Origin: Holophagaceae bacterium
Lineage (GTDB): Bacteria > Acidobacteriota > Holophagae > Holophagales > Holophagaceae
NCBI GenBank assembly: GCA_021286765.1
Contig: JAJTBS010000001.1
Coordinates: 620,001-684,000, forward strand
Direction of reading: 5' to 3'
DNA length: 64,000 nucleotides
A program made the position numbers and the translations under genes. Position 1 is the first letter of the stretch. Each line of letters starts with the position of its first letter. The notes beneath the pieces were generated by a model. It saw only the letters and a list, made by a program, of their open reading frames with translations. It did no database searches and was not told where the DNA came from. Below are positions 37,322-39,234 of the stretch, piece by piece.

Positions 37322-39034
37322 TCAGGGCCTCCCCGGTTCCTGGTAGGCCTGATCATGGACATCCATGACGGCGCGTCCCGAGGGGTCGGCCATCTTGGCG
37401 AAGGCAGCGTCCCAGCGCAGGGCGGTTTCCGTGCTGCAGGCCACGCTGCGCTCGTAGGGCACGCAGTTGACGGCGGTGGCGCTGGGGAAGTGGTGCTCGA
37501 AGAGCTGCCGGTAGAAGTAGGCCTCCTTGGTTTCCGGGGTCTTCACCGGGAAGCGTTCCGCCGCCCCGGCCATCATGCTGTCGCTGATCTCGCGCTCCGC
37601 CATGGCCTTGAGGGCGTTGATCCAGGCGTAGCCCACGCCGTCCGAGAACTGCTCCTTCTGGCGCCAGAGCACTTCGTCAGGGATGAAGCCGTCGAAGGCC
37701 TGGCGCAGGGGGAACTTCTCGATGGGCCGGGGCCGGTCGGCGTTCCGGGGCAGCTTCACCGCGGGATCCATGCGCATGGCCACGTCCAGGAACTCCCGGT
37801 CCAGGAAGGGGACGCGGGCCTCCACGCCCCAGGCGGCGCTGGACTTGTTGGCCCGGGCGCAGTCGTAGAGGTGCAGCTTCTGGAGCTTGCGCACGGTCTC
37901 AAAGTGCAGCTCGGGCCCATCCGGTGCCTTGTGGAAGTAGAGGTAGCCGCCGAAGATCTCGTCGGCCCCCTCCCCGGACAGCACCATCTTGATGCCCATG
38001 GCGCGGATCTTCCGCATCAGGAGATACATGGGCGTCGAGGCCCGGATGGTGGTCACATCGAAGGTCTCGATGTGGTGGATCACGTCCGGGAGGGCGTCCA
38101 GGCCCTCCTGCACCGTGAAGTGGATCTCATGGTGGATGGCGCCGATGTGCTCGGCCACCAGGCGGGCGGGAGCGAGATCCGGCGCGCCCTTCAGGCCGAT
38201 GGCGAAGGAGTGGATGCGCGGCCACCAGGCGGGGGCCGACCCGCCCTCCTCCACGCGGCCTTCCCGGTACTGGGCGGCGATGGCCGAGACGAGGGACGAG
38301 TCCACGCCACCGGAGATGAGCACGCCATAGGGCACGTCACACATGAGCTGCCGGCGGACGGCCGCCTCCAGCGCGGCGCGGAGGGCCCCGGGATCGTAGG
38401 GCGCTGAGGGGACATGGCCCGGCGCCGCCCAGTCGGGCTCGTAGTAGCGCTGGAAGCCCTTGTCGGCCTCATGACCGAGGAAGTAGTGCCCCGGTGGAAC
38501 CTCGCGGATGCGCTCGCAGGTGCCCACGAGGGCCTTCATCTCGGAGGCGACGTAGAGGTGGTCGTGGCGGTCCCAGCCCACGTAGAGGGGGATGACGCCG
38601 ATGGGATCCCGGGCGATGAGGTAGGTCTCGCGCTTGGGATCGTAGAGCACGAAGGCGAAGATCCCGTTCATGCGGTTGAGGAAGTCGCGGGGTTTGAGCT
38701 CATCGTAGAGGTAGAGGATCACCTCGCAGTCCGAGAGGGTCTGGAAGTCGTGGGTCTCCCGCAGGCCCTGGCGCAGCTCCTGGTGGTTGTAGATCTCGCC
38801 GTTCACCGCCAGCACCGTGCCCTGGAGGGTGTCGACGAGCGGCTGGGCGCCATGCTCCACATCCACGATGGAAAGGCGCTCATGGACGAGGATCGCGTGG
38901 TCATCGCTGAAGATGCCGCTCCAGTCCGGGCCCCGGTGCCGGATCTTGCGGGCCATGGCGAGCGCCTGCCGGCGCAGGTCGGCCAGGGGGGACTTGATGG
39001 GGTCCAGGTTGAGGATGCTGACGATGCCGCACAT
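37322..39034 (-). CDS. asnB: glutamine-hydrolysing asparagine synthetase
   Basis: A 570-residue enzyme that makes asparagine from aspartate, glutamine and ATP. The N-terminal glutaminase begins MCGIVSIL, whose Cys2 becomes the nucleophile. The synthetase domain has the pyrophosphate loop ISGGVDSSLV and LSGEGADEIFGGY. The C-terminal part has VPFLDREFLDVAM. Length fits the AsnB type. The start at 39034 is fixed by the Cys2 requirement. Its leader holds an Asn-rich peptide, an internal inverted repeat and a terminator just before the start, so expression is probably attenuated by charged tRNA-Asn. tdh is divergent. Confidence 0.96.
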   Translation of the reverse strand: MCGIVSILNLDPIKSPLADLRRQALAMARKIRHRGPDWSGIFSDDHAILVHERLSIVDVEHGAQPLVDTLQGTVLAVNGEIYNHQELRQGLRETHDFQTLSDCEVILYLYDELKPRDFLNRMNGIFAFVLYDPKRETYLIARDPIGVIPLYVGWDRHDHLYVASEMKALVGTCERIREVPPGHYFLGHEADKGFQRYYEPDWAAPGHVPSAPYDPGALRAALEAAVRRQLMCDVPYGVLISGGVDSSLVSAIAAQYREGRVEEGGSAPAWWPRIHSFAIGLKGAPDLAPARLVAEHIGAIHHEIHFTVQEGLDALPDVIHHIETFDVTTIRASTPMYLLMRKIRAMGIKMVLSGEGADEIFGGYLYFHKAPDGPELHFETVRKLQKLHLYDCARANKSSAAWGVEARVPFLDREFLDVAMRMDPAVKLPRNADRPRPIEKFPLRQAFDGFIPDEVLWRQKEQFSDGVGYAWINALKAMAEREISDSMMAGAAERFPVKTPETKEAYFYRQLFEHHFPSATAVNCVPYERSVACSTETALRWDAAFAKMADPSGRAVMDVHDQAYQEPGRP

Positions 39035-39043
39035 GGAGGCTCC

Positions 39044-39081
39044 AAAAAGAAAAAACCCCGATCCGCCTTCGCGAATCGGGG
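39044..39081 (-). terminator. intrinsic terminator in the asnB leader
   Basis: On the minus strand CCCCGAT (39081-39075) pairs with ATCGGGG (39062-39056); an inner CGC/GCG adds three pairs around a four-base loop. T6-C-T5 follows immediately (39055-39044). It ends ten bases before the asnB start codon, so it must be bypassed for asnB to be expressed. Confidence 0.88.
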
Positions 39082-39141
39082 TGGTCCGGGGTGTCAGGAA
39101 TCTTAGGAGAGACCCTTGCCGGCCCACGCGCGATTCGCGCG
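39070..39141 (-). promoter_or_regulatory. asnB attenuator: antiterminator and protector pairings
   Basis: CGATTCGCG at 39131-39139 is the exact complement of CGCGAATCG at 39070-39078. The latter lies in the 5' arm of the leader terminator, so their pairing would break that terminator. The first copy also lies in a local hairpin, CGCGCG-ATT-CGCGCG (39127-39141), that would keep it away. Ribosome position on the leader peptide could choose between the two states. Confidence 0.72.
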
Positions 39142-39189
39142 GGGGAGCCGATTGGTATTGCGGTTGAGCCGCAGGGGGGAGAGGGTCAT
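39103..39189 (-). CDS. asparagine leader peptide of asnB
   Basis: A 28-codon frame, MTLSPLRLNRNTNRLPRANR followed by eight more residues ending GKGLS, then TAA. Asn is at positions 9, 11, 13 and 19, by codons AAC, AAT, AAT and AAT. Four Asn in 28 codons, three within five, is unusual in so GC-rich a genome, where AAT is a rare choice. It starts about a dozen bases after the likely transcription start. A weak AGGCG precedes the ATG. Its stop lies 22 bases before the terminator stem. Role inferred: the sensor for Asn-tRNA supply. Too short for homology; comparison across related genomes would decide. Confidence 0.72.
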   Translation of the reverse strand: MTLSPLRLNRNTNRLPRANRAWAGKGLS

Positions 39190-39206
39190 GGGTCGCCTGA
39201 TAGAAC

Positions 39207-39234
39207 CTTATCGGTGCCTTTCACGGATCGTCAA
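39207..39234 (-). promoter_or_regulatory. candidate asnB promoter
   Basis: On the minus strand TTGACG (39234-39229) is followed after 16 bases by GATAAG (39212-39207), or after 18 by TAAGGT. Transcription would start just before the leader-peptide ATG at 39189, giving the short 5' end usual in attenuated operons. Confidence 0.55.

Follow-up and report, generated by a model that had tools for sequence, protein, structure and literature searches.

The window (the whole stretch of DNA analyzed, 64,000 nt long) comes from a Geothrix-like soil bacterium of the Holophagaceae, whose closest named relatives are Geothrix. On the minus strand, to which all window coordinates below refer, it carries asnB (37322..39034), encoding a glutamine-hydrolyzing asparagine synthase B of 570 aa identified by the NCBIfam equivalog NF006949 (817 bits, cut-off 499), so that the gene under the leader described here makes the very amino acid that the leader would sense. 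The promoter-like TTGACG noticed in the original prediction is present as a −35 element (39229..39234), followed at a spacing of 18 nt by the −10 element TAAGGT (39205..39210). In all 42 type A leaders, TTGAC occurs within the 70 nt preceding the leader start; TAAGGT follows at the 18-nt spacing in 21 of them, while 13 further ones have TATCAT, TAAAGT, TATGAT, TATGGT or TATGTT at the −10 spacing. Downstream of the promoter, an AGG (39196..39198), likely the Shine-Dalgarno sequence of the leader peptide, lies 6 nt before the ATG of a 28-codon ORF, MTLSPLRLNRNTNRLPRANRAWAGKGLS* (39103..39189), whose frame is conserved in relatives and which has Asn at positions 9, 11, 13, and 19, as had been read from the sequence originally. 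The control codons Asn9, Asn11, and Asn13 (AAC CGC AAT ACC AAT) occupy positions 39151..39165, and among 1169 short ORFs (15–45 aa) of the whole window the leader ORF is the only one with at least three Asn in five codons.

The ORF and the region between it and asnB encode three mutually exclusive RNA pairings. The protector hairpin (region 1:2; 39119..39150; −20.3 kcal/mol) includes the local CGCGCG hairpin of the original prediction as its upper stem, CGCGCG-AAU-CGCGCG, and in addition a lower stem, CGGCUC/GGGCCG, which had been missed. Region 2, CGCGAAUCGCGCGUGGGCCGG (39119..39139), is also the 5′ arm of the antiterminator; its partner, region 3, CCGGACCACCCCGAUUCGCG (39070..39089), serves both as the 3′ arm of the antiterminator and as the 5′ arm of the terminator. 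The nine-base element complementary to the terminator 5′ arm, from which an antiterminator had been proposed, does exist, but it corresponds to codons 17–20 inside the ORF rather than to a segment following it, and its transcript reads CGCGAATCG (39139-39131), CGATTCGCG being the plus strand; the antiterminator itself is longer than described, comprising 18 bp in three blocks (39139-39119 with 39089-39070; −32.2 kcal/mol for the segment). The intrinsic terminator (region 3:4 with its tail, 39044..39082; −23.5 kcal/mol) is strong, as claimed, with a 12-bp stem at 39082-39055 and a T6CT5 tail running to 39044, which leaves nine, not ten, bases before the asnB ATG at 39034. This interval contains GGAG (39040..39043), the putative Shine-Dalgarno sequence of asnB, which is not sequestered by the terminator. 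The folding of the 172-nt leader has z = −3.3 relative to shuffles.

The original prediction had staked itself on an Asn-rich frame being conserved in related genomes, and an Asn leader with a terminator indeed precedes asnB in 46 out of 50 Holophagaceae genomes, these being the genomes of the family for which the asnB start and upstream DNA were retrieved. The control columns of Asn9, Asn11, and Asn13 contain Asn in 41, 37, and 42 of the 42 type A leaders, respectively, both AAC and AAT being used. On the asnB tree, the three Asn columns have undergone at least 11 codon changes and only three amino acid changes; for the flanking columns 9, 14, and 17, there are 35 codon changes and 34 amino acid changes. 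Judged by these sequences, the leader is demonstrably under codon-level selection for Asn. Indels in the ORF comprise whole codons, the stop codon region (TAA/TAG) has a 1-nt indel, and after the stop indels are free, the spacer between the stop and asnB varying freely from 62 to 84 nt. Asn19, previously counted in the control set, is not a control codon, because it falls within the protector loop and its column is Asp in 26 out of 42 type A leaders.

Asparagine genes of Firmicutes are often reported to have T-boxes, and one could suppose that a T-box or another tRNA- or metabolite-binding riboswitch governs the terminator. We consider this extremely improbable, as no Rfam family matches the leader at cut-off, no T-box appears even in a permissive scan, and what is conserved is a translated frame whose indels comprise whole codons. 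The NsiR1 family, covering the terminator region in the Rfam scan, was rejected at 25 bits, below its cut-off of 39.

The C-terminal part of the peptide, RA(N/D)RAWAG, is highly conserved, which would favor a functional small protein or a peptide acting in trans, like peTrpL of Sinorhizobium (PMC7298713), with the terminator being incidental. Yet this block coincides with the RNA-structured part of the ORF (the protector and region 2), codons outside Asn and the RNA structure drift freely, and in one genus the equivalent block is PPPGWSW, with the Asn codons and the pairing logic remaining; such a peptide function is thus very unlikely to be what the leader is conserved for.

The pairings are retained throughout the alignment: among 41 distinct aligned sequences, protector, antiterminator, and terminator pairs are kept in 95.5%, 97.8%, and 94.5% of cells, respectively, compared with 17–60% of cells paired in control pairings slid along the alignment, and the three alternative states suggested originally are all preserved in relatives. 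The expectation that both Asn codons and pairing would co-vary upstream of asnB was borne out for their preservation only, since no compensatory double change was found in the type A alignment for the protector, antiterminator or terminator, the sequences being nearly invariant; therefore, the support for pairing is retention and not covariation. At the loop base of region 2 and its partner position, three kinds of pair occur (GU, AU, and GC).

The genus g9 (L126, L127, L129-L131) has a version of the leader whose RNA sequence is unlike type A, while the order of elements, the topology, and the pairing logic are alike. Its leader MTFASVNFANNNPPPGWSW precedes asnB, retains the Asn codons, and contains the PPPGWSW region matching the type A C-terminal block; the protector is CCGCCC-CCG-GGGUGG, the antiterminator is formed by GGGGUGGAG with CUUCCGCCCC, and the terminator by GCCCCACG...CGUGGGGC and a U-tract.

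In four genomes (G035, G050, G051, and G069), asnB has no leader. In the first of these (L117), the promoter TTGACG-N18-TATAGG is joined to asnB, and the leader and terminator are gone, so that the locus is to all appearance a natural deletion; here TTGACGATTCGCGAAAGCGG resembles a fusion of promoter and terminator sequences. In favor of the attenuator reading, the genomes studied encode an asparaginyl-tRNA synthetase. So do G023, G031, and G032, which belong to the window's genus, are nearly complete, and lack this asnB. Outside the Holophagaceae, we considered 71 asnB loci, mostly from Bacteroidota, Gammaproteobacteria, and Spirochaetes (L041-L112 except L049), a few of which had three Asn in eight codons, and none was convincing.

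When 396 Acidobacteriota genomes were scanned with a covariance model built from the leader (R1), matches appeared in Holophagaceae only, mostly at asnB. In G053, a genome without this asnB, a secondary R1 match lies upstream of an asparagine synthetase A of archaeal type, which matches NF005054 below its cut-off (E = 8e-28) and PDB 3p8t (E = 2e-10), and all three relatives with upstream DNA have Asn leaders, MLKTSLTRQNNRNNANPSTDRAWGGEALV, ...MRRNNRNNASPSANRAWGGEALT, and ...MRQNNRNNNGLRANGVVVGEGMS. In G071, an Asn leader stands ahead of each of its two synthetases. Similarly, the bacterial AsnA of G610 (TIGR00669, 406 bits) is preceded by the leader MSSRNTNSNRNNPCARRAREGVGM and by a terminator with an energy of −26.8 kcal/mol. 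Thus, three non-homologous asparagine synthetases, AsnB, archaeal-type AsnA, and bacterial AsnA, carry Asn leaders, which suggests that the sensor tracks the product and not the gene family. In other Acidobacteriota families, AsnA genes have Asn-rich frames of a different design. AsnA-linked Asn-rich ORFs were seen at L215, L219, L220, L221, and L222, one with NNNNNNN, the hairpin mostly following directly after the ORF, ending near the stop codon, and lacking a clear U-tract. No Asn leader precedes one AsnA-like group, whose scores on TIGR00669 are about 280–325 bits.

Moreover, asnB together with its leader occurs in three genomes of another lineage, G633 (L193), G093 (L194), and G570 (L195), with asnB identity of 82–84%. 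Between G093 and the window's genome, rpoB identity is only 45%, the compared Holophagae being 59–62% identical among themselves; G093 was placed by rpoB, the name Gemmatimonadetes comes from the record label alone, and the other two genomes are of the same class. This discrepancy between asnB and rpoB suggests horizontal transfer of the gene and the attenuator as a unit as the simplest reading. Mis-binning of these metagenome-assembled genomes is a possible explanation but a less likely one, as it would have to affect three genomes.

Taking together the anatomy of the locus, its conservation, codon-level selection for Asn, exclusive pairings, and recurrence at unrelated synthetases, all of them features established by sequence comparison, the asnB leader is very probably a ribosome-mediated transcription attenuator by which asnB is controlled in response to charged tRNA-Asn. 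The original prediction of a leader-peptide attenuator thus gains support from the frame conserved at the amino acid level, the retained exclusive pairings, and the Asn leaders at non-homologous synthetases; ribosome stalling, termination in vivo, and the response to asparagine are what we infer from them. A ribosome would translate the 28-codon ORF as RNA polymerase synthesizes the leader. With ample Asn-tRNA, the ribosome would clear the Asn codons and reach the stop, the protector (1:2) would close behind it, making region 2 unavailable, and the terminator (3:4) would form, ending transcription near 39044. Under a shortage of Asn-tRNA, the ribosome would stall at the Asn codons, mainly at Asn13, its footprint would cover the 5′ arm of the protector, and region 2 would pair with region 3 (18 bp) before region 4 exists, so that no terminator forms and transcription continues into asnB. 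The kinetic race underlying such a mechanism has been described (PMC1183508).

We modeled the stall by folding the RNA downstream of a ribosome positioned at the last Asn, with region 4 not yet made, for 47 leaders and an assumed ribosome leading edge of 9, 12 or 15 nt. For these edges, respectively, 42, 42, and 40 of the 47 leaders had at least six bases of the terminator 5′ arm paired with leader sequence; type A accounted for 42 out of 42 at 9 and 12 nt and 40 out of 42 at 15 nt, and in the genus g9 only four or five antiterminator bases on the terminator arm paired, the outcome depending on the footprint edge. The terminator formed in 47 out of 47 both for a ribosome at the stop codon and in the absence of a ribosome. 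In this model, the control codons are placed so that a stall at the last Asn frees region 2, a result that depends on the assumed 9–15 nt edge. The original proposal that a stall at Asn9–13 opens the protector is accordingly narrowed: by footprint geometry, the stall predicted to open it is the one at the last Asn, here Asn13, whose column is invariant. Adding region 4 makes the terminator the minimum-energy fold in almost every case, a stalled ribosome notwithstanding, and therefore antitermination must be kinetic, an assumption also made for classic attenuators. If the ribosome stalls well upstream and region 4 is unmade, the antiterminator outcompetes the protector as well, hence the protector too must act kinetically.

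The same stall could act on translation of asnB, by exposing its ribosome-binding site, and not on transcription: the hairpin ends only about 20 nt from the asnB start, and some asnA leaders of other Acidobacteriota are hairpins without a clear U-tract. However, the GGAG of asnB is outside all three helices, and the stem is followed by the T6CT5 tract, as in an intrinsic terminator, which makes translational control quite improbable.

The attenuator reading extends to other amino acid genes of the window's genome, where the identities of the DAHP synthase, ilvA, pheA, and proB genes have been confirmed. The DAHP synthase gene (L178, G000:C6:498371-498523, minus strand) is preceded by an R1 match (E = 2e-13) with a near-identical scaffold, in which the leader MSHWFTYPYWSPRADRAWRGQGPS has aromatic control codons (Trp/Phe/Tyr). 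In relatives, HRYYWF or HHHYY versions of the leader occur. The leaders of ilvA (L179, G000:C4:608308-608444; MTPSVHISIHAAIAMISREGA, four Ile), pheA (L180, G000:C3:195779-195927; MLISRRFFVFSFRTPGARPGGV, four Phe), and proB (L182, G000:C4:108632-108775; MTHNPNPCPALPAAGGLRV, four Pro) match R1 weakly (E from 0.008 to 1), their control codons fit their genes, and they are attenuator candidates. In relatives, proC has Pro-rich leaders (L167-L169, L172), and the leader of class II DAHP synthase has Phe/Tyr codons. These loci probably form a lineage-wide, modular attenuation regulon, in which one RNA scaffold would have been copied and re-coded for Asn and Trp/Phe/Tyr and, by architecture, for Phe, Ile, and Pro, the Asn leaders having been recruited by three non-homologous synthetases and transferred along with asnB to another lineage. 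If so, Asn and biosynthetic Pro would be new specificities for leader-peptide attenuation.

Elsewhere, asparagine genes are usually reported to be under AsnC/Lrp or T-box control, responding to asparagine or charged tRNA-Asn, that is, through a protein regulator or direct tRNA binding, whereas the asnB leader would be a translated sensor. The original prediction knew of no leader-peptide attenuator for asnB, and in the open-access literature, the scope of our search, with proteobacterial subscription papers outside it, we found no published Asn leader-peptide attenuator; its novelty is therefore probable, not proven. Like the trp, his, phe, leu, and thr attenuators of Enterobacteria, the asnB leader has an ORF with codons for the product amino acid, 1:2, 2:3, and 3:4 pairings, and a position directly upstream of the biosynthetic gene; unlike them, it would sense Asn, occurs in Holophagaceae (Acidobacteriota), and has region 2 inside the leader ORF, and it has no match among their Rfam leader families. 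Outside Proteobacteria, comparative genomics has similarly revealed leader peptides with matching codons at trp, ilvB, and leuS in Actinobacteria, in a paper that also covers cys and leuA (PMC1262725), and at hisS/hisZ in bacilli (PMC2965389), which, in contrast to the leader studied here, include none for asparagine. Almost none of the attenuators predicted in Acidobacteriota had an assigned function (PMC2965389). The mechanism is classic; its probable novelty lies in the specificity, in the lineage, in recruitment by unrelated enzymes, and in the re-coded copies. Asparagine would join the amino acids that ribosome-mediated attenuation is known to sense, and the re-coded copies at other amino acid genes provide a natural test of how attenuators gain new specificities.
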